A stretch of 64,000 nucleotides of DNA from Xiphophorus maculatus (taxonomy: Eukaryota; Chordata; Actinopteri; Cyprinodontiformes; Poeciliidae): assembly GCF_002775205.1 (NCBI RefSeq), contig NC_036453.1, positions 8,457,103 to 8,521,102 on the forward strand, read 5' to 3'. Position numbers and translations under genes: made by a program. The notes under the pieces are model-generated. The model was not told the DNA's origin. It saw only the letters and a list, made by a program, of their open reading frames with translations, and did no database searches. The stretch's first letter is position 1. Each line of letters opens with the position of its first letter. Shown one piece after another: positions 5,215-63,200 of this stretch.

Positions 5215-8200
5215 CTTAGACTTAGACTGACTTTATTGTCATTTTGCATGCACAGGGTGAATACAGAACGAAATTTCGTTGCATACGGCTCAGGACAATG
5301 TTTTGAGCTTCCAATGTTGTGAGGTTACTCCAGAATAAAATAAAATACAGTATAAAATATGAGTATAAATATAAATATAAAATATAAAGTGCAGGAATGA
5401 CAGTAAAATAGAAGTTATTTAGCTCTGTACATGTGCAAGGTATGAAGTGGAGACCAGTTTTTGAGTGCAGTCCAGTTAAGAGTTCAGCAGTCTGATGGCA
5501 AGTGGGAAAAAGCTGTTTCAGAACCTGGTGGACCTGCACCGGATGCTGCAGAACCTCTTTCCAGAGGGCAGCAGGGAGAACAGTCCATGGTGGGGGTGTG
5601 AGGGGTCACTGTCGATGTTTCGGCCTCGGGACACGCAGCGCTGGGATGAAATGTCCTGAATGGAGGGAAGAGGGGCCCTGATGATCCTCTCTGCTGTCCG
5701 CACCACTCTCCTCACGTTCTTCCAGTCGGAGGCGCTGCAGCCTCCACACCACACAGAGAGGCAGCTGGTCAGAATGCTCTCTATGGTGCTTCTGTAGAAC
5801 GTCTTGAGGATGGGCGGGGGCAGGTGTGCTCTTCTCATCCTCCGCAGGAAATACAAGCGTTTCTGTGCCCTCTTGACCAGAGACGTGGTGTTCACAGTCC
5901 AGGTGAGGTCGTTTGTGATGTGCACCCCCAGGAATTTGGTGCTGCTGACCACCTCCACAGCCGAGCTGTTGATGAGCAGTGGAGCGTGGCTGGACCGGTT
6001 CTTCCTGAAGTCGACGATCATCTCCTTCGTCTTGTCAACGTTCAGGATCAGGCTGTTGTCTCTGCACCAGTCCACCAGCTGCTCCACCTCCTCTCTGTAG
6101 TCCAGGTCGTTGTCGTCTCTGATGAGGCCCACCACCGTTGTGTCGTCCGCGAACTTCACGATGTGGTTGGTGGCGAACCTGGGGGCGCAGTCGTGTGTCA
6201 TCAGAGTGAACAGCAGAGGGCTCAGGACGCAGCCCTGAGGGGAGCCTGTGCTGAGGGTGATGACATCGGAGGTGTGTTGTCCGATCCGGACTGACTGAGG
6301 TCTGTCGGTGAGGAAGTCTAGCAGCCAGTTGCGCAGGGGGGTGCTGAAGCCCAGGTGTCCCAGTTTTCCTGCCAGATGCTGTGGGATGATTGTGTTGAAC
6401 GCTGAGCTGAAGTCCAGGAACAACATTCGCACATGAGTGTTCTTCTCCTCCAGGTGAGCCAGGCTCAGGTGTAGGGCGGAGGAGATGGCGTCCTCAGTGG
6501 AGCGGTTTTGGCGGTAGGCAAACTGGAACGGGTCGAATGTGGAGGGGAGTCTGGAGACGATGTGTTCTTTTACCAGCCTTTCAAAGCACTTCATCATGAT
6601 GGGAGTCAGTGCCACAGGCCGGTAATCGTTGAAAGAGGTGACTTGAGGTTTCTTTGGCACCGGAATGATGGAGGCAGTTTTGAGACAGGCTGGCACTGTG
6701 GCTTGGTCCAGTGACGTGTTAAAAATGTCTGTTAGGACACCAGCCAGCTGACCTGCGCATTCCCTGAACACCCGCCCAGGTATGTTGTCGGGGCCTGGGG
6801 CCTTCCGTGGGTTGACTCTTTTCAGAGTCTTCAACACATCGACTATGTCCAGGCAGAGTGCCTCCTCTTTCTGGTGGGGAACAGTTTTCTTTGCCGGAGT
6901 ACTGTTCAGTGCCTCGAACCTCCCAAAGAAGTTATTGAGTCCATTGAGAAAGTCAGCATCAACTTCGCCCACTGGGGGGGAGGATGGATTGTAGTCTGTG
7001 ATCGCCTTTATGCCTTGCCACATACTCCTGGTGTTGCTGGTGTCGTGGAAGAACTCCTGTATTTTCTGACTGTGGGTTTGCTTTGCTAACCTGATAGCAC
7101 GGTTCAAGTTGGCTCTCGCTGTCCTCAGTGCCTCCTTGTCGCCAGACTTGAAGGCTGAGTTCCGTGCTTTTAGCATTTCCCGTACCTCCTTAGTCATCCA
7201 GGGTTGTTGGTTGGCCCGGGTGATAATGTTCGTAGTGATGCTGACGTCCTCTGTGCACTTGTTGATGTAGGCTGACACAGTCATGGCGTACTCATCGATG
7301 TTGATCTGGTCGTTGTAAGTGGCTGCTGCCTTGAACATCTCCCAGTCAGAGCACTCAAAACAGTCCTAAAGTGCCTCCATGGCCCCCTCAGTCCACACTC
7401 TCACCTGCTTCACTGTAGGTTTTGTTCTGATCAGCAGGAGCTTGTATGCAGGAATTAGCATAACAGATAGGTGGTCTGAAGAGCCAAGGTGGGGGCGGGG
7501 GGCTGCTCTGAATGCTTCTTTGATGTTGGTGTAGCCAAGTCTAGAGTATTTCCTCCCCTGGTTGGAAAATCCACATATTGGTTGAAGTGAGGGAGAACAG
7601 TCTTCATGTTGGCCTGGTTAAAATCCCCAGCAATGATGAAAACGCCCTCTGTGTGTGAGGATTGCAACTCACTGATGGTCCGGTAGAGAACACTCATAGC
7701 CTCTTTAGTGTTAGCACTGGGGGGCACATACACAGCAGTGATGCTAACAACAGTAAACTCCCTGGGCAGGTAGAATGGTCTGCAGTTAACAGTCAGAAGC
7801 TCGATGTCCGGGGAGCAGTAACTGGCGACAGTCATGTCATTTTTACACCAGTTGTTGTTGATGTAAATACACAGCCCCCCCCCTCAGGTTTTACTGCTGA
7901 GAGCGCTGCTCCTGTCTGACCGGAATGTAGCGCAGCCCCTCCAGGCTAACAACGTTGTCCGGTATGGATGAGTTGAGCCATGTCTCCGTCAGAATGAGAG
8001 CGCAGCAGTTCCTCAACTCTCTCTTTGAAGACAGTTCTAGTTGCAGATGGTCTATTTTGTTGTCCAGAGAGCGAACGTTGGAGAGGAAGATGGACGGAAG
8101 CGGCGATCTGTGGGGGTTAGCGTTTAGCTTAGCTGTTAGTCCACTTCGACAGCCGCGCTTCCGCTACCGGTCGCACCGCCTTCGCTTGCTCCTCCTCCGA

Positions 8201-9765: not shown

Positions 9766-9794
9766 CATTATTATTATATTTATTATTATTATTG

Positions 9795-11384
9795 TCCATC
9801 CATCCGTCCGTCCGTCCGTCCGTCCGTCCGTCCATTTTCTTCTGCTTATCCTGGGTCGGGTCGCAGCTTCAGAAGGGAGGCCCAGACTTCCCTCTCCAGC
9901 CACTTGTTCCAGTTCCTCCGGGGGAATCCCAAGGTGTTCCCAGGCCAGCCAAGAGACATCGTCCCTCCAGCGTGTCCTGGGTCTTCCCCTCCTTCTGGTG
10001 GGACATGAACTCCTCACCAGGGAGGCGTCCAGGAGGCATCCTGGCCAGATGCCTGAGCCTCAACTGGCTCCTCTCGATGTGAAGGAGCAGTGGCTCTACT
10101 CTGAGTCCCTGCTGGATGGCTGAGCTTCTCTCTCTAAGGGAGAACCCAGACACCCTACAGAGAAAACCCATTTCGGCCGCTTGTATCCGCGATCTCGTTC
10201 TTTCGGACATGACCCAAAGCTCATGACCATAGATGAGGGTGGGAACGTAGATCGACCGGTAAATCGAGAGCTTCGCTTTTTGGCTCAGCTCTCTCTTCAC
10301 CACGACGGACCGGTACAACGCCGCTTGACAGCAGACGCTGCGCCAATCCGCCTGTCGATCTCCCGCTCCCTTCTTCCCTCATTCGTGAACAAGATCCCGA
10401 GATACTTGAACTCCTCCACTTGGGGCAGGACACCCCCCCTGACCCTGAGAAGGCACTCTACCCTTTTCTGGCTCAAGACCATGGCCTCGGATTTGGAGGC
10501 TCTGATCGTCATGCGATCCTAAGGCCACCAAATCGGATCCCCTCAACACCTTGGCTGGTCTAGAAATTCTGTCCATGAAAGTGATGAACAGAATCGGTGA
10601 CAAAGGGCAGCCCTGGCGGAGTCCAACTCTCACCGGAAACGAGCCCGACTTACTGCCGGCAATGCGGACCAGACTCTGACTGGTTGATACGGACCAGACA
10701 GCCCGTATCAAAGGGCCCGGTACCCCATACTCCCGGAGAACCCCACCGAGCTCCCCGAGGGACACGGTCAAACGCCTTCTCCAAGCCCACAAAACACATG
10801 TAGACTGGTTGAGCGAACTCCCAGAACCCTCCAGGACCCTGCCGAGGGTGTAGAGCTGGTCCAGAGTTCCACGACCAGAACCAGAACCACCCTGCTCTTC
10901 CTGAATCCGAGGTTCGACTATCCGACGGACCCTCCTCTCCAGGACCCCTGAATAGACCTTGCCAGGGAGGCTTAAGAGTGTGACCCCTCTATAATTGGAG
11001 CACACCCTCCGGTCCCCCTTTTTGAACAGGGGGACCACCACCCCAGTCTGCCAATCCAGGGGAACTGCCCCCGATGTCCATGCGATATTGCAGAGTCGCG
11101 TCAACCAACACAACCCTACAACATCCAGAGCCTTAAGGAGCTCCGGGCGGATCTCATCCACCCCCGGGGCCCTGCCACCGAGGAGCTTTTTAACCACCTC
11201 GGCGACCTCGTCCCCAGAGATTGGAGAGCCCAACCCAGAGTCCCCAGGCTCAGCTTCCTCAGTGGAAGGCATGTTGGTGGGATTGAGGAGGTCTTCGAAG
11301 TACTCTGCCCACCGGCCCACAACGTCCCGAGTAGAGGTCAGCAGCACACCATCCCCACTATAAACAGTGTTGGTGCTGCACTGC
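9795..11384 (-). mobile_element. Rex3/RTE-type LINE fragment, copy A, catalytic box deleted
   Basis: On the - strand the copy encodes RTE-type reverse transcriptase: GGRAPGVDEIRPELL, VVPLFKKGDRRVCSNYRG, LLSLPGKVYSGVLERR, GLRQGCPLSPILFITFMDRI, then a C-terminal part with EFKYLGILFTNEG and SIYVPTLIYGHELWVM. Between FMDRI and EFKYLG the usual (F/Y)ADD box is absent: the sequence jumps across a junction near 10511-10514. The 3' end finishes in a CCGT/CCAT tetranucleotide tail at 9795-9833, typical of Rex3-like elements. TTATTATTATT occurs at both ends and may be the target duplication, but the site is a simple repeat. It is nearly identical to copy B at 21486-23098. Confidence 0.88.
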
Positions 11385-11399
11385 TTATTATTATTACTA

Positions 11400-13289: not shown

Positions 13290-14547
13290 GTTGATGGATG
13301 GATGGATGGATGGATGATGGAAGGATGGATGGATGGATGGATTGATGATGGATGGATGGATGGATGATGGAAGGATGGATGGATGGATGGATGATGGAAG
13401 GATGGATGGATGGATGATGGAAGGATGGATGGATGGATGGATGGATGGATGATGGATGGATGGATGGATGGATGGATGGATGGATGGATGATGGATGGAT
13501 GGATGGATGGATGGATGGATGGATGGATGGATGTGTTAACCTTTCCTGCCCAGTCTTCTGACCGGAGGACGGTTGCCACTCACCTGCACTCAACATACAC
13601 ACCACTTACTGAGCTATCATCACATACAGTGGAGGCACTTTCCGTAACAGATGGATGGATGGATGGATGGATGGATGGATGGATGATGGAAGGATGGATG
13701 GATGGATGATGGATGGATGGATGGATGGATGGATGGATGATGGAAGGATGGATGGATGGATGGATGATGGATGGATGGATGGATGATGGATGGATGATGG
13801 AAGGATGGATGGATGGATGGATGGATGATGGATGGATGATGGAAGGATGGATGATGGAAGGATGGATGATAGATGGATGATGGAAGGATGGATGGATGGA
13901 TGATGGAAGGATGGATGATAGATGGATGATGGATGGATGATGGATGGATGGATGGATGGATGATGGATGGATGGATGGATGGATGATGGAAGGATGGATG
14001 GATGGATGGATGGATGGATGGATGATGGATGGATGGATGGATGGATGATGGATGGATGGATGATGGATGATGGAAGGATGGATGATAGATGGATGATGGA
14101 TGGATGGATGGATGGATTATGGATGGATGGATGGATGGATGGATGGATGGATGGATGGATGATGGATGGATGGATGGATGATGGATGGATGATGGATGGA
14201 TGGATGATGGATGGATGGATGATGGATGGATGGATGGATGATGGATGGATGGATGATGGATGGATGGATGATGGATGGATGGATGGATGATGGAAGGATG
14301 GATGGATGGATGATGGATGGATGATGGATGGATGGATGGATGGATGGATGATGGATGGATGGATGATAGATGGATGATGGATGGATGGATGGATGATAGA
14401 TGGATGATGGAAGGATGGATGGATGGATGATGGATGGATGATGGATGGATGGATGGATGGATGATGGATGGATGGATGGATGATGGAAGGATGGATGATA
14501 GATGGATGGCAGGATGATGGATGGGTGGATGGATGATGGATGGATGA
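13290..14547. repeat. Compound (GGAT)n satellite, ~1.25 kb
   Basis: GGAT tetramers dominate, regularly punctuated by GATGATGG and GATGGAAGG variants. The array is split once by about 110 bp of unique sequence (13535-13648). The frames through it translate as WMDG or HPSI repeats on the two strands and are not genes. The GATG motif is also the usual 3' tail motif of Rex3-type LINEs, so a retroelement tail could have seeded the array. Confidence 0.95.
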
Positions 14548-14759: not shown

Positions 14760-16128
14760 CAGGGCCGGCCCAAGGCATAAGCAAACTAAGCAGCCGCTTA
14801 GGGCCACCAAGGGGCCCCCTCAATGGAGCTGATTTTTTTTTTTTAGTAATAATTTCTATGTCATTATAATGTCAAAAACACACAATTTGAAGGATCTGTT
14901 TTTACAATAATATATATTTGATAATGAATGTAGAAATCTTTATTTTATGGATAAAAGAAAAAATAAATAAATTGCTCTTGGGGCCCCCTGGTGGCCGCGG
15001 TAGGTACCGCACGCTTCGCCGGTAACGAGCTGCTGTTCAGAACATCCAAAGGTCCAAAGGTCCAAAGCTCCGGTCAGAAGTTAAGTTAGTTAAACTACAG
15101 TATGTCTCAGAAAAGGACTGATCCTTCAGGGAGGGAGAAAAGAAAGAGGAAGAATAGAAAAAGCCAAGATAAAGGTTTTAATGAGTCTTGCTAATGTAAT
15201 GTAAAGATTAGTAAAGCTGCTAACAGAACATTAGCTTGATAGCGACCTGGACCGGTCCAGTTCAGCAGTAAACATTTATGCTAGAGTTTAAACTTTAAAT
15301 GAGTTGATTCTCATGGTGGCTCTGGATATTTCTGAGCTATTTTGGCTTCAAACCGTCTTTAATAAGAATAATTAAAACTTGTCAATGTTTGACATTGTTA
15401 GCTAAATGTTTGTCCTTCAGGCTACAAGCTGCTACATGATGAGCTGCTCTATGTTGTTTGCTGCTGAGCAAAATCATTTAGTGGCTAAAACATTATTTTT
15501 ACATCAACTTCTAAGTTATGAGAAACTTCTGTTAAAATCATTTGAAGGCTCAGAATCAGTCCGGTACCGGTACCGGTCCATATTCTCAGGGGAGAAAGTC
15601 TCACCTGGTATAAATTACATTTTAGCTGTTGGAGTAACGCTTAAGAGAAATGAATTTAATCAAAGGATGTCATGAATATGTGTAGAGCTGCACCGATTGC
15701 AGTTTTCTGGCCGATCCCTGGTTACCGATCTTTAAAAGCCTGACCTGCTGATTTTGATTTTGGCTGATATGAATTTTTTTTTTGTCTGAAATGTAGCAAG
15801 AAAGTCACTGAGTTGGTAACAATGGGGTGAATATTGTTAGCTGTAAACGTTCAGACCTGGTGGGCCGGTCTGTCAGTCAAACGTCTCACTGCAGAGCAGA
15901 AGAGGACAGAGATGATTTATAAACCTTTGCTGATGAAGATCAGATCAGCTTCACATGTAAGAATCAGCTGATCACGACGCCCCAAAATTAAGGAAATCAG
16001 CTCCCAGAAATCAACTGGTCGATAAACCAGTTGGCCAGTAAAAGTATCTTATATTATACATGTATATAATGTAAACAGCTAGAGATGCAATAAGTTTATA
16101 CGTAGCAGGTGTGTGAATGATCTAATGA
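14760..16128 (+). mobile_element. hAT transposon relic with transposase start (copy A)
   Basis: It starts with the inverted-repeat tip CAGGGCCGGCCC at 14760. Blocks 14760-14985 and 15868-16128 match the short copy at 43558-44181. The interval between them, missing from that copy, carries at 15102 an ATG frame MSQKRTDPSGREKRKRKNRK that resembles the basic start of zinc-finger (ZMYM/BED-like) hAT transposases and stops after about 28 codons. A separate repeat (15684-15860, also at 54828) lies in the interval. The 3' terminus is lost near 16128. This is a decayed, truncated copy. Confidence 0.65.
15684..15860. repeat. Dispersed repeat nested in the hAT relic
   Basis: The segment AGAGCTGCACCGATTGCAG, then a TTTTCTGG(C/T)CGAT segment and 'taccgatctttaaaa', recurs at 54828-54990. 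The two copies sit in unrelated surroundings, so this is an independent repeat. I could not identify a family or ends. Confidence 0.55.
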
Positions 16129-17369
16129 TTTGACGACATTCAGTTATTTAGACCAAGAAGCATCAAACCCGATGTTTTTTCATGGTTTTAATATTTTGTT
16201 TAATCGTAAATGATGAAACTGAACCGCATTTATCCTCAGACAATAAGCTAACACGCAGACAAAATAAAGAAAATCAAAATAAAAGTATGTGAAAACCTCA
16301 CTAAAATGTAAATAGTACTTTTCCTCAGTTTGTGTCTCATAAAGATGTAACTCATTGGTCCGAGAGCTGAAGCGCCGAAATGCATCTATGGGTCATTTCA
16401 TTGTCACTAAAATTGGATCAGCAGATTAACTCCAACCTGCTGATTAAAAATAATCAACAGGTTTGATTGATTGAAGGTGATCAGGTGTGAATGCAATCCC
16501 AGGTATATCAGTAGCTGCACCAAGGTGAGCCGCTACCTGAGGAGCTTTGGCTCTGATGGAGAACATGGAGCCATTGATCAGAGATCAGATTGATCTGCTG
16601 GTTTCTGAGCGTTTAGATTCATCCAGACTGATCATCCTGGAGCTCTGAGCAGAACTTAAAGCAGGTACCGGTACCGGTACCGGTCCAGCTGCAGCCGCCC
16701 GCTATGTGAATGCTCCTTCTGGACATGAAGCATCTAGTATTTACAATAATCGTCCACATTCCCACTCAGAGACTCTCTGCCTGTCTTTAAATCCGGCTGA
16801 ACGCTCTGCTGCTCTAACAGCCATTTACAGGATCTCTTTATTTTTCATTTTTTTAATTTGGATTTTTTTCTTTAAAATGTATTTTTATTTTTGTGAGGTG
16901 ACATTATGTGTCCTCAAAGCACCTTTTAAATAAAAAATATAATTATTATAAACACTTTTACAGCTTCGAACAAGGACGTTGCCATGGTTACTGCTTCACG
17001 CGGCGGCAGACTTCCGGGTATTTATACCAATTTACATTAAGATGCATTTATGGAGGCGACAGGCGGAGCAGCAGCTGCTCTGCTTCCGCAAATTAGGATT
17101 TATAAAGGAAAGGTGCGCGGCCACGGCTTTATGCATCCGATTTTTATTTTGTTCGCCGCACTTTCCTAAATTTTTCCATGCGCCAAGTTTTAGTGTGAAA
17201 ACTGCAAACTGTTTTATGCACGAGGCCCCTGACCTTTATTCGTTTTTGAGTTTTTCCTTTCTATTATTTTGTTAAAGTGTATATGTGTTTATAAAATGCT
17301 TTCATTATATTGACATTATAAACAGAAACAATAGAAAAACAAATAATTTTTTTTTCTGCATTGTTTTCT
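16129..17369. other. Intron 1 DNA, GGTACC repeats only
   Basis: No gene recognised. Short GGTACC/ACCGGT tandem runs occur at 16664-16685 (three units), with a similar run at 15561-15578. Each run is self-complementary and could form a hairpin. Confidence 0.4.
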
Positions 17370-21473: not shown

Positions 21474-23110
21474 AGTTTCTCTCATCGAGGCGATTCTGGT
21501 CCACCACCCGGCGTCTCAGGGGGGGGGAAGCAGTACGGCACCAACACTGTTTATAGTGGGGATGGTGTGCTGCTGACCTCTACTCGGGACGTTGTGGGCC
21601 GGTGGGCAGAGTACTTCGAAGACCTCCTCAATCCCACCAACATGCCTTCCACTGAGGAAGCGGAGCCTGGGGACTCTGGGTTGGGCTCTCCAATCTCTGG
21701 GGACGAGGTCGCCGAGGTGGTTAAAAAGCTCCTCGGTGGCAGGGCCCCGGGGGTGGATGAGATCCGCCCGGAGCTCCTTAAGGCTCTGGATGTTGTAGGG
21801 TTGTGTTGGTTGACGCGACTCTGCAATATTGCATGGACATCGGGGGCAGTTCCCCTGGATTGGCAGACTGGGGTGGTGGTCCCCCTGTTCAAAAAGGGGG
21901 ACCGGAGGGTGTGCTCCAATTATAGAGGGGTCACACTCTTAAGCCTCCCTGGCAAGGTCTATTCAGGGGTCCTGGAGAGGAGGGTCCGTCGGATAGTCGA
22001 ACCTCGGATTCAGGAAGAGCAGGGTGGTTCTGGTTCTGGTCGTGGAACTCTGGACCAGCTCTACACCCTCGGCAGGGTCCTGGAGGGTTCTGGGAGTTCG
22101 CTCAACCAGTCTACATGTGTTTTGTGGGCTTGGAGAAGGCGTTTGACCATGTCCCTCGGGGAGCTCGGTGGGGTTCTCCGGGAGTATGGGGTACCGGGCC
22201 CTTTGATACGGGCTGTCTGGTCCGTATCAACCAGTCAGAGTCTGGTCCGCATTGCCGGCAGTAAGTCGGGCTCGTTTCCGGTGAGAGTTGGACTCCGCCA
22301 GGGCTGCCCTTTGTCACCGATTCTGTTCATCACTTTCATGGACAGAATTTCTAGACCAGCCAAGGTGTTGAGGGGATCCGATTTGGTGGCCTTAGGATCG
22401 CATGACGATCAGAGCCTCCAAATCCGAGGCCATGGTCTTGAGCCAGAAAAGGGTAGAGTGCCTTCTCAGGGTCAGGGGGGGTGTCCTGCCCCAAGTGGAG
22501 GAGTTCAAGTATCTCGGGATCTTGTTCACGAATGAGGGAAGAAGGGAGCGGGAGATCGACAGGCGGATTGGCGCAGCGTCTGCTGTCAAGCGGCGTTGTA
22601 CCGGTCCGTCGTGGTGAAGAGAGAGCTGAGCCAAAAAGCGAAGCTCTCGATTTACCGGTCGATCTACGTTCCCACCCTCATCTATGGTCATGAGCTTTGG
22701 GTCATGTCCGAAAGAACGAGATCGCGGATACAAGCGGCCGAAATGGGTTTTCTCTGTAGGGTGTCTGGGTTCTCCCTTAGAGAGAGAAGCTCAGCCATCC
22801 AGCAGGGACTCAGAGTAGAGCCACTGCTCCTTCACATCGAGAGGAGCCAGTTGAGGCTCAGGCATCTGGCCAGGATGCCTCCTGGACGCCTCCCTGGTGA
22901 GGAGTTCATGTCCCACCAGAAGGAGGGGAAGACCCAGGACACGCTGGAGGGACGATGTCTCTTGGCTGGCCTGGGAACACCTTGGGATTCCCCCGGAGGA
23001 ACTGGAACAAGTGGCTGGAGAGGGAAGTCTGGGCCTCCCTTCTGAAGCTGCGACCCGACCCAGGATAAGCAGAAGAAAATGGACGGACGGACAGACGGAG
23101 TTTCTCTCAT
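21474..23110 (+). mobile_element. Rex3/RTE-type LINE fragment, copy B, with 12-bp target duplication
   Basis: The element body is 21486-23098, flanked by perfect direct repeats AGTTTCTCTCAT (21474-21485 and 23099-23110). The coding content is that of copy A at 9795-11384: PGVDEIRPELL, VVPLFKKGDRRVCSNYRG, RQGCPLSPILFITFMDRI and the C-terminal YGHELWVM region. The catalytic ADD box is deleted at the same junction (about 22400-22403). Over 1.5 kb the encoded proteins differ from copy A at only about two or three residues. The 3' tail is GGACGGACGGACAGACGG. The target duplication shows that this copy arrived by its own retrotransposition event. Confidence 0.92.
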
Positions 23111-24700: not shown

Positions 24701-24844
24701 GTAAAATGTATTAAGTCATATTTGATATGTAGCATTTTGTAACAGCTAGTGGTAACATAGAAAGGACAATCAGACCTGCAGCTGCCATCTGACTCTTAAC
24801 AGTTTCCATGTTTGTCTTGTAGGCTTGAATCCCCCGGAGGCCAA

Positions 24845-27800
24845 ATGGAGCAGGATGTGGAGAGTCCGGCCGCCGTCAGGAAACCCAAACTGCCCAAGCA
24901 GGCCCGGGAGGACCTGCCCAAGCAGCTGGCAGAGATAGACAGAGCAAAGAAGATCCAGCGCTACGTCCAGAAAGACGGGAAGTGCAACGTCCACCACGGG
25001 AATGTCCGCGAGACCTACCGCTACCTGACAGACATTTTCACCACGCTGGTGGACCTGAAGTGGCGGTTCAACCTGTTCATCTTCGTGCTGGTGTACACGG
25101 TGACATGGCTGTTCTTCGGCCTGATGTGGTGGCTCATCGCTTACCTCCGCGGCGACCTGGACCATATAACTGATGGTCAGTGGACTCCGTGCGTCAACAA
25201 CCTCAACGGCTTCGTATCTGCCTTCCTGTTCTCCATAGAGACGGAGACCACCATCGGCTATGGATACAGAGTTATCACGGACAAATGCCCCGAGGGAATC
25301 GTTCTGCTTCTGGTCCAGTCAGTGCTGGGATCCATCGTCAACGCCTTCATGGTGGGCTGCATGTTTGTTAAGATCTCGCAGCCCAAGAAGCGAGCGGAGA
25401 CTCTTGTGTTTTCCACCAACGCCGTCATCTCCATGAGAGACGGACGGCTGTGCCTGATGTTCAGAGTCGGAGACCTCCGAAACTCGCACATCGTAGAGGC
25501 TTCGATCAGAGCCAAGCTCATCAAGTCCAAGCAGACCAAGGAGGGGGAGTTCATTCCTCTCAACCAGACGGACATTAACGTAGGCTACAACACCGGAGAC
25601 GACCGGCTGTTCCTGGTGTCACCGCTCATCATCTGCCACGAGATAAACCAGCACAGTCCCTTCTGGGAGATCTCCCAGGCTCACCTGGCCAAGGAAGAGC
25701 TGGAGATTGTTGTGATCCTGGAGGGAATGGTGGAGGCCACAGGTCAGTTCACACTCAGGAATTAACAACCTTCCTGCACAATATTTAATTCAATTTAAGA
25801 TTTCTAAAGGTGACCAGCTTCCTGGAATAGATTAGGATCGGTCAATGGCCTATACAAAACATGTTCATTATTTATCACTAAATCATTCTTAGATGATGAG
25901 ATTTCAGTCTGATTAGTTCTGCCTATTTGGAGTGAAAATAGCTGCAAACAGACGAGCAATTATACAACTGTACAACTTTGAAAAGCATCAGTGGAGCCTC
26001 CTGTTCAACCAGCCAGAATGCAGCAAGTCAACAACTAAACTCTTGTCTTTTCCAGCAACGCATAAAAACCAGCTGACCAAACGCTGGAGGTCAGCCGGGG
26101 TTGCTAGGTAACGGTATAATACATGTCGATTGTGACTCAATGATCGGGACATTTTTTAACGGCTCATTTTTCAGACACCATAAAACATGGAAACATGAAC
26201 TTATTGCCAAAAATGTCTGGGTGTTTTTAAGCGCATGGTCTGATTTAAAAGCAGCAAAACCAAAACGGAAGAAGAAAAATGCGCAAATTGTAAATTTTGC
26301 ATAATCGGTTCCCTTTGAAACTGATTATAGAAACATGAAAGGTATTTTTATGTTTCAGTTCCACAAAGACTCAAATTCTTATGATGCACATTTTGTTTTA
26401 ATTCATCAAAAATATGAGCAGTCGTTTATTTTGGTCGCTGTAATTGAAACATGATTGAGTCATTTTTACATTTTGGACTCGAACAGAGTGAGAGTTATTA
26501 GGTTTTAGAGAAGATTATTATTATTTAATATAATTACTGCTGCAACTAATCGATTAATACGATGAAAACAGGCAGAATCTGGAGAGCGGATGTTTTCTAC
26601 AGTTAGTTATTAATCACATTCTAAATTAGTTGATGATTATGTCAACAAATGATTAATCAGATTAACCTGATTAATCATTCAGCCCTAGATATAATAAACA
26701 TGTTCAACTCTAAAAGATTTGATGAGGCATAATATTTCTACATGTCAAAACCATTTTTCTACCTCTACATATTTGTTTTACATGTAAATATGAATCTTTC
26801 TGCGTGAACAAAACAAAAATAGACGACCTGGAAATATTTTCCCTTTGTTTAGGAAATGAGGATTTTTATTAGCTTCATTTTAGTAAGTTGAATTTTGAAA
26901 TAAGCTCCACTCAGACCTGTTAACAAACAACAGATGTTGGAAAGTTGGACAGTTTAAGATTCTTTAATTTTTTACTGTAAAAACAATCAAAAATATAAAA
27001 TCCTTTTGTTTTCACAGACATTTTTCCACTTCAGTGAAATTTATGTGTCAATACTGAACAAGCTGCTTTTGATAAAAACAAAAATCCAATTTGATCTGTA
27101 CAGAAAGTTTCAGCAGCTTTTCTTTACATCATAGAAACACAAAGTCATGAAACAGAATCAACAATCAATCGGGACATTAAGTCGAGTTCCATCGTTAAAT
27201 TGATTATTGATTACGTTTCAAGTAAAACTCTAACCAGCTGCTTTTAGTCTGGATTTAAAGGATCTCAGTGTTTCTGATGCAGAACCAGAACCAGAACCTG
27301 ATGGGTCTGGAAGGTTGATCCAGCAGCAGCAGCAGATCTTTAATGTGTTGTGGTTCTGATCCGTTCAGTGGTTTATAAACTAACAGGATTTAAAGTTTAT
27401 CCTCTGAGCTACAGGGAGCCAGTGGAGGTTCTGGAGAACTGGGTTTATGTCTCTATCCTCCTGGTTCTGGTCAGAACTCCAGCAGCAGCGTTCTGGATCA
27501 GCTGCAGCTGGAGGATTGATTTGTTGGGCAGACGCTGCTGCAGGAATCAAAGCGACTGGATGAGTTTCTCTAGATCTCACTGAGATATTAGTCATCTAGA
27601 TGTTGTTCAGCTGATAGAAGGCGACTTTGTGACCGTCTTTATGTGGCTCTGGAGGGTCAGGTCAGAGGTCAGAGGTCATCACTACTCCAGGTTTCAGGAT
27701 GATCGCTGGTTTGAGTTGTAATAACTGCAGCTGTACATTGACTCTAGATCTGTAACTCTAGATCTATAACTATAGATGTATAACTAGATCTACAACTATA

Positions 27801-30800
27801 GATGTATAACTCTAGATCAGGGGTCTCAAACTCCAGTCCTCGAGGGCCGCAGTCCTGTAACTTCTAGATGTGCCTCTGCTGCACCTGAACAGAATAATGA
27901 GGTCATTAAGGTTCTGGAGAACCGAGCTACACCAGCAGGAGGTAATGAAGCCGTTTCATTCCTGTGTTTTGTACCTGAGGCTCATCTAAAAACTGCAGGA
28001 CTGCGGCCCTCCAGGCCTGGAGTTTGAGACCTGTGCTCTAGATCTGTAACTCTAGATCTATAGCTCTAGATCTATAACTCTAGATCAGGGGTGGGCAACT
28101 CCAGGCCTCGAGGGCCGGCCTCCTGCAACTTTTAGATGTATCTCTACTTCAACACACCTGGGTCAAATAATGAGGTCATTAGCAGGACTCTGGAGAACTT
28201 GACTGCACTGAGGAGGAGATTCAGCTGTTGGATTCAATGTGATGGACCAGGGAGACGTCTAAGAGTTGCAGGACACCGGCCCTCGAGGACCAGGATTGCC
28301 CACCCCTGCTCTAGATCTATAGCTCTAGATCTATAACTCTAGATCTGTAACTCTAGATCTATAGGTCTAGATCTATAACTCTAAATCTAGAACTATAACT
28401 CTAGATCTGTAACTCTAGAGCTATAGATCTATAACTCTAGATCTATTACTCTAAATCTAGAACTATAACTCTAGATCTGTAACTCTAGATCTAGAGCTAT
28501 AGATCTATAACTCTAGATCTATTACTCTAGATCTACAACTCTAGATCTATTACTCTAGATCTACAACTCTAGATTGCTCCTCTTTAGGTCCAGAAATTAT
28601 AACTTCAGTTTGATGAATTTGGACAGAAAATGATTATATTTCTAAATTTATTCTTGTCATCATCTAATAATTCAGACTTTCATCCTCAGAAATCATAAAC
28701 AGTTTTAAGCTGAAATGATTTGATTGTCCTTTTAGCAGAACTCCTCCCTGAAAACAGATTATAGTTTTATAAATAAAGTGTTTTGTTGACGCCCAGCGCA
28801 ATAATTAATAATATGGAAAATGATTTAACGGTGGAACAAACTCCAGTCAGAGTTTTGTTTGCTCCTTCTAAGCCCATAAACTCAAACTCTTTCATATTCG
28901 GTTCTCCTTTTTCTGCTTTTTCCTCTCCAATGCAGCAGGAAGAGTAAAAACCTGGAACTGGATATTAAAATTGAGATTTATGTGCAGATTAACCCACGGT
29001 GTCCAAAATGACTGAAAATGTTTTTTAGGGAAAAGATTCAGAGTTTAGAATCTGTTTTCAGATTATCCCTTAATCCCTGTTTATGTGTCAAATAATCCAT
29101 ATTAGGGATTTTTATTATTTTAGTGATTAATTGGATAAAAATGACTCATTCTGGAGATTTTACATTTAACACTCCTTGTATAATGTTGAAAATATGCAAA
29201 AAATATAAATAAACAAATAATTTAATTCCTTTCTTAAATATTTTATTATTTAAATATTTTTAAAACAGTTTCTTAACAGCTTTCCTTCACTGAATGCTTG
29301 ATCATTTTCTGCAGGTAAAAATACTAAAATGATTAATTTGTCACTGACAGCATCAACACAGCAGGGCTGAGAAATGAACAGATTAATAACTGGATCATTT
29401 TACACATTTTAAATCAGATGAAATTAAATATCCCATTTAAAGAGTTCTGGGTAAAACTCATTCTGAGTTTTATGTTGCTGCATTTTTTCCTCCCATCACC
29501 TGAACTCTGCTGCTTTTAACTTGCAGCAAGTTTTGCTAAATTAATGAGTTTTTGCCCAGAAACTGGAGGTTCTGCAGCGGGTTGGTTCCAGGGGGTCCAA
29601 AGTGACGGGTGACTCCTTGTTAGTATAGTGGTGAGTATCCCCGCCTGTCATGCGGGAGACCGGGGTTCGATTCCCTGACGGGGAGTGAAGTTTGTTTCAG
29701 GTCCCTCTTGAAAATGAGATCTAGATCTCAACGGGATTTACCTGATTAAATAAAGGAATTAAAATAAAAAAGTGGGTCCTGGAGGCCCGGCATCCTGCAT
29801 GTTTTATTCCCTCCCTGGTTTTAGTAACAACCTCCTCAGCAGGTCAGTGACCTTCTAATGATCCATCATTGGATCCAGGTGTGTTAAACCAGGGAGAGAC
29901 TAGAACATGCAGGATGCCGGGCCTCAGGGACCCACTGTGGGCCCCCCTGGGTTAGACGGAGCTGAAGCAGCCGCACACTTTACTGCTTTAATAAAGTCAA
30001 ACTCTTTAATATTTAGTTATCATCTTACTGCTTTTTACTCTCTAATGCAGCAGAGATCTTCATAACTCTGACTCCATTTCTGACAGCAATTTTACCAATG
30101 ATAGTAGCTCAATAGATGATCAATAATAAAAATACAAGCTCACTAATTAAAAGGAAAGCAAAAAAACTCCAAACCAACTTAATAAACAAGTGAAACGATC
30201 AGGAAAAATTATCACATCTGAGTGAAGCTGACAGTCAGACATTAACCAACGTTACATGGAAACTATATTCTGCATTTTATGCCTCAAATATTTGATGCTT
30301 TCAATCATTTATTCTGCTAATCAACCTGATGATGTCATTTTTAAATTCCATAACATTTTAGAGAATTTTTGCTTCTTTATTGTTCAAATGTTTGATTTTG
30401 TAAATAATGTTTACATTTATGTGAGTTATGGATGGGCAGCAAACCTGCTGCCTTGCAGCCAGAAGGTTCTGGGTTCGATTCCCGGCCCGCGTCTTTCTGC
30501 ATGGAGTTAGCATGTTCTCCCTGTGCATGGTGGGTTCTCCGGGTTCTCCAGGTTCTCCAGGTTCCTCCCACAGTCCAGAAACATGACTGTTGGGTTAATT
30601 GGTCTGTATAAGTTAGGTGCGAGTGTGTGTGGTTGTCTGTCTCTGTGTTTCCCTGAGATGGACTGGTGACCCGTCCAGGTGACCCCTCCTCTCGCCCTTT
30701 GACCTCTGGAGAGACACCAGCGCCTCCTGACCCCAATGGGATAAGGATGGAAGAAAATGGATGTATGGATGGGCAGTAGTTGCTAATGATGCTAATGTCC

Positions 30801-44586: not shown

Positions 44587-47500
44587 ATGATCCTGACGGC
44601 TCCGTCTCCGTGCCTTCCTTCTGCCGCCACCGTCCAGCAGCTGTTCTCTGTGGCCCGAGACGCCGACATCGTCCCGGATATCTCCCTGGATCCGGTGCTC
44701 ACCACCTTCCTGTCCCTGGACTCTGCCGCTGCCCTGCAGCATCGGTACGGCTTCCTGCAGCGTGGCATGAGCGGCGAGCAGCAGGCGGCCTTCCACCTGA
44801 ATCTCACCGCACAGCTGAGCGGCTGCAGGGTGGCGAACGGAGGCGTAGGGGTCGTCGCCTTGGCCCTGTCCCTGCTGTTTGACCAGGTGGCCCAACATGT
44901 ACGTCAAATATTTCATTTTTCAGTTTAAATTCTTTGTTTTAGCAACAGAGTATTAAGGACAAAGGAATAATGGATAAATGTCAGAAATAAAGTTAGTAAT
45001 ATTATGAGGAGAATAAAGTCATAAGTCATTGTATTATGATGTTATTCTTCTGTGACTTTATTCTCATAATTTTCTGTAATTTTCTTAGTGTGGCCTGGGA
45101 CAGATTTTAGTTTACAGTTTCGGTAGCCCAGGGCTCCAAAGATTACTTTTATTCAATTTTTTAATGAATTCATGCTTTACATGGTGTCTTATATAAAACT
45201 GGTTCATCAGATGAACTCCATGAATCTTTGGAGCTTTACAGCTGCAGGATCACCTACAGTAATCAGTAGGAGAGATTTTGTGCAGCGGACTGGGCACCAA
45301 ACCGGCTCCAGCCCAGGGCCACGACCGGGTGAGTCTGGCCCTGCTGCTCTGCTGTAATGTCCATAAAGCTAAACTTTTAAAGCTGCCATCAGGTCCGCGC
45401 TGCAGCTTCGCCGCAGGGATCCGAAGTTCCGAGGGTGTTCGGCGTCAGCGCCTCGTCCAGAATCGGATCGATGATCCACGGCTACCTGCGCCTGGTCCCC
45501 GCCGTCGCCAACGACGAGGAGAAGATGGCGGAGGCCGCCGAGCTGTACGACGCCTGGCTCAACCTGGAGCTGATCGACCATTATGAGAGGATGACCACCA
45601 AGAAGAGGATGAGCACAGAAGCCATGCGGCAGTGGCTGGCCGGCGCCGCGTTTCACCTGCACCTGAGGATCCACCAGGTGAGCCGAACCAGGAAACCATG
45701 GAGGATCAAACTTCTACAAAACTCTGCATTCAAACTGACACCATGTTTGTAATGAGATAAATAATCTGAACAAAGATCGACCTGCTGCTGCTGTCTGGAG
45801 GCGGGGCATAGCGCTGTCAATCAACCTCATGTACTCGCTTGGCATTGAGCATGATTGACAGTGCTAAGCCCCGCCTCCTGACTCTGATTGGTTGTTTCTG
45901 ACTGACTGGTGTATTTCTGCAGTTTAGAATAGAAAAGAATAGAATAGAAGTACTTTATTCATCCCAGCAGGGAAATTACTTCGCATTTACAGCATAGAGA
46001 CAAGACACAATAACAACTACCACTGAGTAGTAGTTGTAGATAAAATAAAAATAAAAAATAAAATGCTATAAATTGTAAAAATATAACATGCTGTTAATAT
46101 AAAAAGCAGCTTAGAGCAGTTCTTGCAAAGATTCAAAAAATGCAGATATGTATATGTAAATATATGTACAGCAGTGTGCCACAGTGCAGTTGTGCGAAAT
46201 CGGACTGATTAGTGCAGAACAATGATTTAGCTTTTATTGTACAGTGAGATGGCCTGTGGCAGGAAGGATTTCCTGTATCTGTCCCTACGACAGCGGAGCT
46301 GGAGCAGCCTATTTTATTGTCCATCATAGACAGAACCTTCTTCAGTGTCCTCCTCTCCACCACAGTTTCCAGGGACTCCAGCCTTAGTCCCAGTACAGAG
46401 CCAGCTTTCCTGATGATGTTGTCCAGTCTATTAGAGTCGCTGGCTCTGATGCTGCTTCCCCAACACTGGAAATCAGTGGGTGTACAAGGTGAAGAGAAAG
46501 GGAGAAAGCACAGTTCCCTGTGGAGCTCCTACGTCACTGACCACCACATCAGACAGGACACTGCCCAGACGGACAAACTGTGGCCTGCCTGTCAAGTAGT
46601 CAGTCACCCAGGAGATCACTGAGTCGTTGACACCCATCCTCCGCAGCTTCTCACCCAGCAGCAGAGGCTGGATGGTGTTGAAGGCACTGGAGAAATCAAA
46701 GAATGTGATTCTCACAGTGTCTCCTCCACCATCCAGGTGTGACAGCGCTCGTTGCAGCAGGAAGATGACGGCATCGTCAACTGCTAAGTGGGGCTGGTAG
46801 GCAAATTGCAGGGGGTCTAGAAACGTCCTCACCTGAGGCCTCAGCTGGGCCAGGACCAGTCTCTCCATGACCTTCATCACATGAGATGTGAGAGCGACTG
46901 GTCTGTAGTCCTCTGGGTCGGATGGCCTTGGCTTCTTGGGAACAGGAACCACATGTGATGTCTTCCACCGCAGCGGGACTCTCTCCAGCCTCAAGCTCAG
47001 GTTGTACATGTGTGCCAGTACAGGGGCCAGCTGGATGGAGCAGGTCTTCAGGATCCGTGGTGTAATGCCATCAGGTCCTGCAGCCTTCCCCTGGTGTAAT
47101 CGCTCCAACTGTCTCTCAACCTGGCCTGTAGTCACCGTTAGCTGGGGGTAGGTGTTGTTGTCTGCAGTGGAGATGGGGGGAGGATGGGGGGGTGTGGGGG
47201 GGCTGAAGGAGAGGTGGTGTGCACTGTACTGGGAGCAGTGGGAGGAGGCAGACGAGCTCGATCTGTTTTGTCCCAGATTATCTGTGTCATAGAGTCAGTG
47301 CATAATAATTTTAACAAATTTGTAAAATCTGTTTTTCTAAAAGCTTCAGGTGAAAGAAGAAATAAACAGACAAATGTACTCTAAAAGCAAAACCACCTGA
47401 GGAAAAGGAAGTACCTCGCTTTTAAAAGTACTTAAAATATTTAAGTAAAAGTACTTTCTCAATGTATTTTTTTATGCAGGAGTGTCCAAACTGCGGTCCA

Positions 47501-57200: not shown

Positions 57201-60200
57201 ACACAAGGGTTATTATATCACTATATTTGGGTAAAAAAAAGATTTATTTATTTAAAATTTCACCACATAAAAACAGGATTAAAAACAATCTGAATTCAAA
57301 GCTTCTTTTATTTCCATGTGATAAATATATAGTCAGCAGAATTCATTTACAAAAGTTACAAAACATAAGTTGTTTCAACAGTATATAATGAAGTCACTTC
57401 AAGTCATTATTTGACTACAACTCCAGAAGTATCTGTTACTGCATTAGAAAACATTTCATGTAAAAAGTCTGTTTTAAAACAAACTACAAGTAAAACTTGT
57501 AGAAACTGCGGCTTCTATGTTGTCACATTTTGTAGATGATCCACCAGGTTTGTCCCAACCTGATGGAGAGAGAAGACAGAAAAAACAGGCCAGTAGTGAT
57601 GAACTTGTTTAAACAGCAAACAATTTGAGCATGACTCAGAGATGAAGGTGGACGTACAGCCTGGATATCAATAAAACCACCCGAACTTCCAGGTTGATGG
57701 GACTGAAAATCTTCTCCCAAATGTGTAAGGTGGAGCAGCTGCAGGGCTACATCACCTTCTCTATCAATCAGAAACTAGTGTTAAAATGTTACAGTAACTA
57801 AAAGCATGAAACCAGTTTAGAAAACATTTCTTCTTGGCTTCAATGCCTTGGGGGAGCAAACTCATGTTCTTGGCCATACAGAAGGTCTTTGTTGAGAACA
57901 AGGAGTTCGGGTTTCGCTTAATTCTCCTGAAGATCCTGGATGTAAAATTATAACTTCCATCAGAAAAGACAAAAACACAAATCAAACTTTAAGAATGATT
58001 GAATTCAACCTTCTAGCCAATAATTTGTAATTAACCAGCAATTTCAAAATTGGAGTAATTTTTATGGTCCTAGAAATAAATATAGCACTCAGTAAAATAA
58101 AATGACACATCATTAAATTTACAAGTAAAAGTTAACTTAAACACTAACTTAGTGCTGAAGTTACTTCTTTGATGGACTATTTGGTTTTTGCCACTTATAA
58201 AGAAAAGAGAATCAAGTTTGCTGGGGAGACAAGATCAGGATTCCAGATGTAAAAATAAAGAGTTCTTTCTATTCAAATTATTTTTGCTTTTAAGTCGTTT
58301 CTTAACCAGCCGCTCCGCCCAGTCATCTGACAGAACGGCTGCAGTGGGAGTGGATAAAAGTCCGATCCCGTTTGTAATTAAGCACATAATTCAGGTTTAC
58401 ACTACTAATTTATCGCCTAATAATGTTGTGAAAGTTATTTTATTTTCCAAAAAACATAATATACCCACTTTATTAACAGCTCTGCTTGCTCTCCAGCGCC
58501 TTTACCGCATATCGCCCCCTGCTGGTGAACTAAGCCCACTATCTTTTCTTTTAAAACTAAATCGATTTTTAAAAATTTTGACTACGATAAGTTACGAACA
58601 AATATGGTTGAAGTTATATTAAACAATTGAATTTAATTTACTTGACAAATTGTGCCCTCTTCCTTCCCCTTCATCTTTTTATTTTTAATTTTTCAACAGC
58701 CGTGTTGCAGCAAAACCAAAGCTCTTTGTCAGAGCAACCCACTTTAATAAACATTTTAAATAACCATAAAAATAAATATCAAACATGTTGTAAATAAATT
58801 CCATTTATTAATTCACGTTGAAACTTTATCTTCTTTTTACTTACCATGTCTTATTTCAAAGTAGAGGAGCAACGTTCACAGTCTTGTTGAACATGGAGGC
58901 TTGTGAAAAGGGGCGTGGCTTCTTCCACGTTTCGTCTGTAACCCACCGACTGGGTAAATGTACCCAACCTCTGACCCAACAGAATATTCAACCCGTAGAG
59001 TTCTGGTAAATTTCTGACCCAACTCTTGAGTTATGAATTTTGACCCAATATTTGGTCAAACTGACCCAACAGCTTCTACCCAGAAATTGGGTTATGAAAA
59101 TAACCCAACATTTTTTACTGTTTTACTACCAATAATTTTAAAATGTAGTCGGTAAATGCCTGCATATGAATGAAGGAGTGAATGAGTGAATGAATGAGTC
59201 CAGCTCTCTAACAGATGTTTTCCGTTATTGATGATCAATACGTTGATCAAAACGTCAGCCGATCTATTTCTGTCTTTAGACTGAAGTATTGTTTGTTACA
59301 GTTTGAAAAATAAAATAAATTTGTGATAAACGTTTCGTTAAGTTTGTATAGCACAAGTTTGTTTCTGTACTGTGAAAACATCCCAGATTCTTTTGTTTCA
59401 GGAAAGTGAAGCGATGAAGATCCTTGGGAACGAGAAGTTTCAGGCCCAGCAGTACGCAGAAGCTCTGAAGTTTTACACCAACGCCATCAAATGCTAGTGA
59501 GTTTCTGTCAACGATGAAACGATGTTTCTAAACCGCTAATGTCACAATGTTTTCTCTCAATACTTCCAATAAAAGTTGTTCATAAAGTAAAAGTTTCATT
59601 AGTATCCATGTTTTTTGTTTTATGAGAAGTTTTTATGTGCTGAGTCAATCTGAAGTCACTTTCAGTCATTTTGTGATTTCAGTTTTAAACCAGAAAATAT
59701 AAAAATGCAGCAAACATTTCTGCTGGTGATAAAAACAGTTTGAACTGCATTTTGTGTCCTTAATGTGATAATTTTGTGCTCCTTGCTTTAGTCCTGATAA
59801 TCACATCCTGTATGGGAACAGAGCGCTGTGCTACATCAAGCAGAAGGAATATCTGTGAGTAAAATCAACCTTCGCTGCAAAAACGTTGGATTTATGCAAA
59901 ATTATAAATTTTTTTGTTTCATCTTGTCATTATTTTACATGATCTGCATGTAATATGTGTTTTTTTTGGCGCCGGCACAGCTGGCTGCCTGCAGACGCAG
60001 CTCCCGTCGTGTGTGTTAATCTGTGTATATTTGCTGTAACCGATTAAGGATCCGTGCTTAAAGAACCCATGGATCATCAGTTAAGCTTTCCACAATGGCT
60101 GGATGTGGTTCTGTCGGTTCTGTCGCTGTTCTCTACGGAGTAGAGGCATTGATTGTTGCGGAGAACCTCGCCGAGCGGAGTAGCGGCATTGTTTATGTGC

Positions 60201-63200
60201 GTGAACAGCTGATTGCGCTGTGTGGGCCTCTGCTGCTGCCCGGAGACGGGCCTGTGGTCCGGAGGAGTTACGGAGGAGACGACGGGGCTGCAGGTCTGGA
60301 GTTAAACGGAGGGAGAAGAAGAGACGGCACAAACCAGCGATACCGGCGATTATTGTGGGGAACGTGAGGTCTTTGGGAAATAGGACAGACGAACTCACGG
60401 CGCTGGTTAGGACCCAGAAGGAGTACTGGGAGTGCAGTATCTTCTGCTTCACGGAAACCTGGCTGCACTCGCTTATTCCGGACTACAGCATGGAGGTTCC
60501 TGGATTTTCCTTGGTGCAGGGACAGGGACTTTTCCAACAGTCGGAAGAAGAGGGGCGGCGGGATTGCACTTTATGTGAGTGAGAGGTGGTGTAATCCCGG
60601 TCATGTTAACGTGAAGGAACAGATTTGTAGCCCGGACATTGAACTTCTGGCTGTGGGAATGCGGCCGTATTATTGACCAAGGGAGTTTACGTCCGCCATT
60701 TTGATCGCTGTTTACATTCCCCCATCAGCTGATGCAGCGGTGGCCTGTGACGTCATCAGCGCTACCGCAACCAAACTACAGACTCAACACCCGGACGCCT
60801 TCATGGTCATCACAGGTGACTTTAACCATGCCTCATTGGACAAAACTCTACACAACTTCCAGCTGTATGTTGACTGTCCCACCAGGGAAAACAAAATGCT
60901 GGATCTCCTGTATGCTAATGCCAAAGATGCATACAGCGCCACAGCCCTGCCCCCCCTCGGCAGGTCGGACCACATCTTGGTAAGGATGACTCCCAAGTAT
61001 GTCCCTCTAGTGAGCAGGCAGCCTGTGCGCATCAGGACGGTGAGGAGGTGGACACAGGAGGCAGCTGAGGCACTGCAGGACTGCTTTGGGTCGACAGACT
61101 GGGATGTGCTCTGTGGGCCTCATGGGGAGGACATCGACAACATGTCTGACTGCATCACGGAATACATCAGATTCTGTGAGGACACTGTCATGCCAGCCTG
61201 GACCGTGCGCTGCTTCTCCAACAACAAACCCTGGATTACCAGCGACCTGAAGGCACTTCTAAACAAAAAGAAGATGGCTTTCAGGTCTGGAGATAAGGAG
61301 GAGCAGAGGAGAGTCCAGCGTGAACTCAGAGAGACACTGAGGACATGCAAGGACAACTACAGGAGGAAGCTTGAGTCCAAACTCGAGCAGAACAGTGTGA
61401 GAGATGTGTGGAAAGGAATGAAGAACATCACTGGAATGAAGGGAAAAGACACACAGAGATCTGGGAGCCTGGATAGAGCAAACCAGTTCAACCAGTTTTT
61501 CAACAGGTTTAGCTCACCTCCTGCTACTCCCCTACCACCACCAGCCCCCCACACATCCACACTGCCCCAAGTCGTTCAATCCACCTACCTGCATTCTCCT
61601 GCACACCACCTCTTCTTCAGCCCCCCCTCTCCTCCCCCCATCTCCACTGCAGACAACAACACCTACCCCCAGCTAACGGTGACTACAGGCCAGGTTAAGA
61701 GACAGTTGGAGCGATTACACCAGGGGAAGGCTGCAGGACCTGATGGCATTACACCACGGATCCTGAAGACCTGCTCCATCCAGCTGGCCCCTGTACTGGC
61801 ACACATGTACAACCTGAGCTTGAGGCTGGAGAGAGTCCCGCTGCGGTGGAAGACATCACATGTGGTTCCTGTTCCCAAGAAGCCAAGGCCATCCGACCCA
61901 GAGGACTACAGACCAGTCGCTCTCACATCTCATGTGATGAAGGTCATGGAGAGACTGGTCCTGGCCCAGCTGAGGCCTCGGGTGAGGACGTTTCTAGACC
62001 CCCTGCAATTTGCCTACCACCCCCACTTAGGAGTTGACGATGCCGTCATCTTCCTGCTGCAACGAGCGCTGTCACACCTGGATGGTGGAGGAGACACTGT
62101 GAGAATCACATTCTTTGATTTCTCCAGTGCCTTCAACACCATCCAGCCTCTGCTGCTGGGTGAGAAGCTGCGGAGGATGGGTGTCAACGACTCAGTGATC
62201 TCCTGGGTGACTGACTACTTGACAGGCAGGCCACAGTTTGTCCGTCTGGGCAGTGTCCTGTCTGATGTGGTGGTCAGTGACGTAGGAGCTCCACAGGGAA
62301 CTGTGCTTTCTCCCTTTCTCTTCACCTTGTACACCCACTGATTTCCAGTGTTGGGGAAGCAGCATCAGAGCCAGCGACTCTAATAGACTGGACAACATCA
62401 TCAGGAAAGCTGGCTCTGTACTGGGACTAAGGCTGGAGTCCCTGGAAACTGTGGTGGAGAGGAGAACACTGAAGAAGGTTCTGTCTATTATGGACAATAA
62501 ACAGCCCCCTCTCCACCACATAGTGGACAGACAGCGGAGCACCTTCTCACATAGGCTGCTCCAGCTCTGCTGTCGTAGGGACAGATACAGGAAATCCTTC
62601 CTGCCACAGGCCATCTCACTGTACAATAAAAGCTAAATCATTGTTCTGCACTAATCAGTCCGATTTCGCACAACTGCACTGTGGCACACTGCTGTATATA
62701 TATTTACATATACATATCTGCATTTTTTGAATCTTTGCAAGAACTGCTCTAAGCTGCTTTTTATATTAACAGCATGTTATATTTTTACAATTTATAGCAT
62801 TTTATTTTTTATTTTTATTTTATCTACAACTACTACTCAGTGGTGGTTGTTATTGTGTCTTGTCTCTATGCTGTAAATGCGAAGTAATTTCCCTGCTGGG
62901 ATGAATAAAGTACTTCTATTCTATTCTATATAAAAACCTTAAGTTTAAAAGTTAAACTTTGTATAAATGGACAGAAATGTGTATATTTTTGTATTTAATA
63001 TTATTTTCCTGTTGCAGAAAAGCAGCAGGGGATGGAAAACGTGCCGTTCTGATCGACCCGCTCTGGGCGAAGGTACAATCCGGCTGAACTAATAACTGCT
63101 TAGGGTTTCCTAATTAATAATTCATATTATTTAAATATGCTTTAATATGTTTTGCATGTTTTTTGGCGATGTTTTATCGGTTGGATTATTATTTTTTTCT

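Follow-up and report, generated by a model that had tools for sequence, protein, structure and literature searches.

Two 5′-truncated LINE copies of the Rex3 type with a dead reverse transcriptase (RT), here named A and B, share a deletion and many further lesions in a 64,000-nucleotide stretch of Xiphophorus maculatus DNA (hereafter the window), and the junction of this deletion was found in Rex3 sequence nowhere else in the genome assembly. We propose that A and B were independent insertions that were subsequently homogenised by local gene conversion, a reading to which we give a probability of about 0.6. Since no third junction copy was found in the genome, the likeness of the two copies probably stems from DNA exchange between neighbours. 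A second LINE family in the same region offers a parallel, as its copies C, D and E locally share an inactivating deletion of their own.

Copy B was delimited by alignment, by its match to the RVT_1 profile and by its target-site duplication (TSD) at 21486..23098 on the forward strand, and copy A was placed at 9794..11386 on the reverse strand, where it starts 42 bp further in than B and carries a longer tail. The alignment of A (11386..9815, reverse strand) with B (21528..23099, forward strand) extended over 1572 bp without a gap and contained 6 mismatches, of which 1 fell within the tail, in agreement with the preliminary description, which had reported two Rex3-type copies with few differences. 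The five full-length copies of the same genome that were aligned all end in TAA-GCG-(GAA)2-(GATG)n. A figure legend in PMC6274825 gives the Rex3 tail likewise as stop codon, GCG, (GAA)2 and (GATG)n, and one text passage of that paper has GATC in place of GATG. In A and B, the 3′ end reads TAA-GCA-(GAA)2-AATG and is followed mainly by GACG units. By this 3′ end and by their RT domain, both copies belong to Rex3. The window also contains a 1.25-kb (GATG)n array at 13293-14546, alongside which no Rex3 body was found.

The deletion junction lies at 22392..22414 (forward strand) in B and, identical in sequence, at 10500..10522 (reverse strand) in A. When up to 3 mismatches were tolerated, this 23-bp sequence was found at two places in the window and in none of 100 shuffles. 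Comparison with long relatives from the same genome revealed that A and B had lost 100 bp net, including the ADD-coding stretch of motif C, and the RVT_1 profile was matched only at positions 2-142 of 205 in both copies (E-values of 1.1e-10 for A and 2.4e-10 for B). The RT-catalytic deletion that had been claimed for the pair is thus real. In the other LINE open reading frame (ORF) of the window, at 5521-7365 on the reverse strand, the RVT_1 match spans positions 2-205. A search of the PDB matched the 5′ piece of B to LINE-1 ORF2p chains (E-value of 2.5e-13) up to ORF2p residue 682, whereas no LINE was hit there by a frame-1 piece or by either of two 3′ pieces. Motifs A and C are parts of reverse transcriptases with established roles. 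The Asp codon of motif A, read in an alternative frame, has changed from GAC to GGC in A and B, a change that the 38 other copies compared do not show. Frameshifts common to A and B, also asserted previously, were confirmed by the alignment. Compared with five full-length copies (L006-L010) and a third related copy, L043 (also labelled L005; C9:30365864-30367480), 35 substitutions and several indels were restricted to A and B; 15 further substitutions were common to A, B and L043, some of which may represent older states of the family.

L043 has lost the same ADD stretch through a different, 88-bp deletion, which means that this region can be lost repeatedly. The identical junctions of A and B might accordingly have arisen once in each copy from intact sources, through RNA splicing or recurrent template switching. 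We regard such a double origin as extremely improbable and rejected it in view of the other lesions common to A and B, as neither the five full-length copies nor L043 have the 35 substitutions and several indels that accompany the deletion.

A and B appear to have inserted separately, as the preliminary description had held: their 5′ ends, tails and flanks are all unlike. B is flanked by the perfect 12-bp TSD noticed at the outset, AGTTTCTCTCAT, at 21474..21485 and 23099..23110 (forward strand), and none of 4000 random draws of 40 × 20 bp reached a 12-bp match, draws lying too close together being skipped and scored as misses. B is therefore an insertion of its own. The best candidate for A was (TAA)4, at 11385..11396 on the 5′ side and 9780..9791 on the 3′ side (reverse strand), which carries little information within its AAT-rich surroundings; A was probably also inserted independently. 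The tail of A begins with proximal GACG units as in B and continues with distal GATG units as in ordinary Rex3, and the tail of B consists of GACG-type units only, one of them altered.

A duplication at the DNA level, in which one copy derived from the other by segmental duplication or templated repair, would fit a pair of only two copies lying inverted and 11.7 kb apart, and another repeat is found nearby: window positions 16128-17231 and C11:8253472-8254575, separated by about 220 kb, are 99.9% identical over 1104 bp. Self-BLAST, however, detected no homology between the flanks of A and B. In local alignments of the 1-kb flanks against 20 shuffles, the 5′ side scored 21, at the shuffled level (maximum 24), and the 3′ side 22, slightly above the shuffled maximum of 18. 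Both copies, moreover, end in Rex3-type tails of unequal length, and B has its TSD. Segmental duplication was rejected on the missing flank homology, and local duplication in general appears very doubtful to us. The preliminary description had named two findings that together would speak against its own account; of these, a restriction to two copies was indeed observed, and a segmental duplication at A was not, no flank homology being seen.

The genome of the fish itself (704 Mb in 101 contigs) was searched with B as the query, and 40 copies out of 2553 first-look candidates were scored, namely A, B, L043 and 37 others. The 37 others match the first 918 bases of B at 95.4-96.3% identity and resume after about 103 bp that are missing from B; the deletion of A and B was absent from all 37 of these long copies. 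The ADD motif is spelled GCAGACGAT in 33 of the 40 copies, and one further copy has GTAGACGAT, in which the first residue is changed. Neither spelling occurs in six copies, comprising A, B and L043, which carry deletions, and L028, L034 and L032, which are undeleted at this place. In 26 of the 40 copies, the compared stretch contains an open frame of 500 aa or longer. At least 20 copies reach one 5′ limit together with L048, approximately 1.37-1.38 kb upstream of the start of B, from which a full element of about 3.1 kb follows. The 40 copies are not all independent, since L017, L029 and L030 (on C36 and C13) represent one duplicated block with common flanks and tandem repeats. In trees of 38 copies, from which L029 and L030 were left out, A, B and L043 were grouped with a support of 100 for the whole alignment and 98 for its 5′ part, and were not grouped for the 3′ part, a pattern compatible with a mosaic history of these sequences.

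Searches beyond this genome and for other features inside A and B added little. Relatives sought in viral contigs, phages and plasmids yielded nothing useful, a screen of 257 Gb of genome contigs returned two bacterial 19-mer matches (by estimate about the chance level), and the Rex3 piece had no match in PHROGs. Neither A nor B contains a tRNA or Rfam match at gathering score, so that no SINE head of tRNA, 7SL or 5S origin was seen, a result that says little in copies that are both 5′-truncated; the sole hit of either kind in the window was a tRNA at 29613-29686. The window further contains an inward rectifier potassium channel ORF at 24800-25765 (forward strand) and a VPS9-domain ORF at 38019-38426 (reverse strand), both consistent with a vertebrate genome.

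When the whole 704-Mb assembly was scanned for the junction with up to 2 mismatches, exact matches were obtained at A and B only, so that the claim of one junction in both copies stands, and there was no third site in Rex3. Three more sites, each with 2 mismatches, hold no Rex3, and a reversed control pattern matched 2 sites. The junctions of A and B are inverted and 11.7 kb apart. Two random sites would fall within 12 kb of each other with a probability of 3.4e-5, and a Rex3 copy has another of the 2552 candidates within 12 kb with a probability of about 0.08; these values favour a local process among neighbours. As the Rex3 sites of the junction are A and B alone, a dispersed dead family is unsupported in this assembly and was rejected. 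A TSD of its own, as expected for each member of such a family, was seen in B, and A offers its AAT-repeat candidate. The main proposal of the preliminary description, that a dead LINE had spread in the manner of a SINE, was thus not supported, because its junction was found in Rex3 only at these two adjoining, inverted copies.

Copying in trans might nevertheless have operated on a smaller scale, if an intact Rex3 had supplied the enzyme that reverse-transcribed the transcripts of one dead Rex3 element extending further 5′, with two insertions as the outcome. This dead element would then have been the ancestor of B or a copy since lost, and the closeness of A and B would reflect chance or a local insertion preference. 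The unlike 5′ ends, tails and flanks and the perfect TSD of B accord with such events, and the 26 copies with a long open frame could have served as helpers. In addition, A and B share 57 minority states and differ at 5 of the 1549 compared sites, from which it follows that their shared body had decayed before they parted. On the other side, the census makes the copying of a dead element in trans less likely, with no third junction copy in 704 Mb and only 11.7 kb between A and B, and three of the five differences are not new mutations but alleles that other members of the family also carry. We hold the trans route to be possible, if rather unlikely.

The distribution of the A/B differences modestly hints at conversion tracts, as far as site patterns can tell. 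The first 135 bp of the shared sequence contain 3 differences and 1 shared minority state, and the remaining 1414 bp contain 2 differences and 56 shared minority states. The 135-bp boundary was picked after looking at the data; at least 3 of 5 differences fell into one terminal 135 bp with a simulated P of 0.011, and the longest mismatch-free run, with its place not fixed, had a P of 0.063. Both alleles at each of the 3 sites in the first 135 bp are present in other copies; the majority state belongs to A at two of them and to B at the third, and L043 shows the minority state throughout. The other 2 differences stem from CpG-type changes in B, and one of these changes is also present in 1 of the 37 other copies. 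A gene-converted pair should show tract edges at which older differences persist, and the edge signals observed were modest and partly post hoc.

A compound frameshift patch, consisting of one substitution and one lost base, was present in 7 of the 40 copies, and its 22-bp allele, CTGGAGGGTTCTGGGAGTTCGC, which A, B and L043 carry, had 41 exact sites in the genome. So many sites would suit the spread of frameshifted copies in trans, but the sites are themselves clustered: 30 pairs lie within 500 kb of each other, against a mean of 1.2 under random placement. The positions of the 37 long copies served as a second control and gave 2 such pairs, one of them the L017/L029/L030 block. The allele sites lie mostly close to the ends of chromosomes: within 4 Mb of a contig end lay 33 of the 41 and 15 of 35 in the control, the high end being known for some contigs only. 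The clustering may simply mark the places in which old copies have persisted. Another compound frameshift patch was seen in A and B and in the otherwise ordinary Rex3 copies L046, L014 and L016, suggesting mosaicism, template switching or a polishing error; polishing errors in young repeats are a possible source of small mosaic lesions.

The parallel comes from a family that we take to be CR1/L2-like. Its long copy D (59967..62929, forward strand) aligns with the intact LINE ORF at 5521-7365 and, relative to it, skips from residue ~391 to residue ~538, with motif C gone. The 5′-truncated copy C (45936..47223, reverse strand) has the motif-C deletion of D together with a 49-bp deletion that it shares with copy E, which lies outside the window at C11:8248188-8251072 and starts at the first element base of D. 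The RVT_1 match ends at position 134 of 205 in both C and D. The 25-bp junction lies at 62331..62355 (forward strand) in D and at 46459..46483 (reverse strand) in C. A genome-wide search that tolerated up to 2 mismatches located it at 3 sites, each of them exact and all within 270 kb on C11 (8250548, 8503561 and 8519433). By inspection, the flanks of C, D and E are unlike one another, and no TSD of at least 8 bp was found for C or D. In all 3 pairs, the longest mismatch-free run covers the junction (D-E, 419 of 2885 sites; C-D, 433 of 1279; C-E, 702 of 1250), with P values of 0.021, 0.069 and 0.001, respectively, for pairs that are not independent and with gaps ignored. With the place of the run not fixed, the values were 0.108, 0.126 and 0.001. 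The 702-site run of C and E spans a 25-bp gap in E that the test leaves out of account, and after this run E diverges from C in its last ~110 bp.

Across the two LINE families, junction sites are therefore local, 2 of 2 lying within 12 kb and 3 of 3 within 270 kb. RT-dead LINEs copied in trans and landing near their source, through a local insertion preference of LINE RNPs, would likewise leave each dead lesion private to one chromosomal neighbourhood, though such a process seems quite improbable to us. If the locality were RNA-mediated after all, it would suggest that LINEs insert preferentially nearby.

Local gene conversion accounts for the confinement of the junctions, the differences at the edges and the recurrence in two families, on statistics that are modest. 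Inverted repeats that lie close together lend themselves well to conversion. In the history that we envisage, A and B would have begun as two Rex3 insertions made by target-primed reverse transcription; near Rex3 neighbours are not rare, as the genome has up to 2553 first-look candidate places. One copy, most likely the body of B, would then have decayed in place, acquiring the deletion over motif C, the change of the motif-A Asp, the frameshifts and the 35 substitutions. A recent ectopic gene conversion would have copied the decayed body onto the inverted neighbour 10 kb away, and A would retain older states in about the initial 135 bp of the shared sequence and in its distal tail. We infer conversion as the copying step, as well as its direction and its date. 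Several observations stand against it. Long identity between A and B is already present from about 10 bp inside the 5′ end of A, and the proposed 5′ edge consequently rests on three sites and an after-the-fact boundary. The place-free tests of the longest run are weak for A/B, D/E and C/D, and the perfect TSD of B is slightly easier to reconcile with a young insertion than with an old, decayed one.

Inactivating lesions shared by LINE copies tempt one to read them as a dead family mobilised in trans. In the two families analysed here, each such lesion is kept to one chromosomal neighbourhood of the assembly, and local gene conversion could mimic non-autonomous spread by passing the dead state to a neighbouring copy. 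Rex3, an RTE-clade LINE of teleosts, is matched by A and B in the pattern of the 3′ end, in the RT domain and, for B, in the TSD, but the two copies differ from it in being 5′-truncated and RT-dead and in having a GCA/AATG end and a tail unit that is largely GACG. HAL1, or half-L1, is described in the relevant passages of PMC5753468 as a named repeat family encoding ORF1p only; it resembles A and B as a non-autonomous LINE derivative, whereas here the junction is restricted to one locus pair. SpIREs, according to the sections of PMC5860796 that deal with them, arise by splicing within the 5′ UTR or between the 5′ UTR and ORF1, and some need ORF1p in trans. They are likewise LINE copies made defective by an internal deletion, but in A and B the deletion affects the RT region, the pair has many other lesions in common, and no more than two sites were found. 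A likeness in mechanism would be offered by palindrome P6 of the human Y chromosome, for which PMC3723533 reports gene conversion between near-identical inverted arms; in the present case, two LINE copies of about 1.5 kb take the place of the arms, their flanks are unrelated, and conversion is deduced from site patterns.
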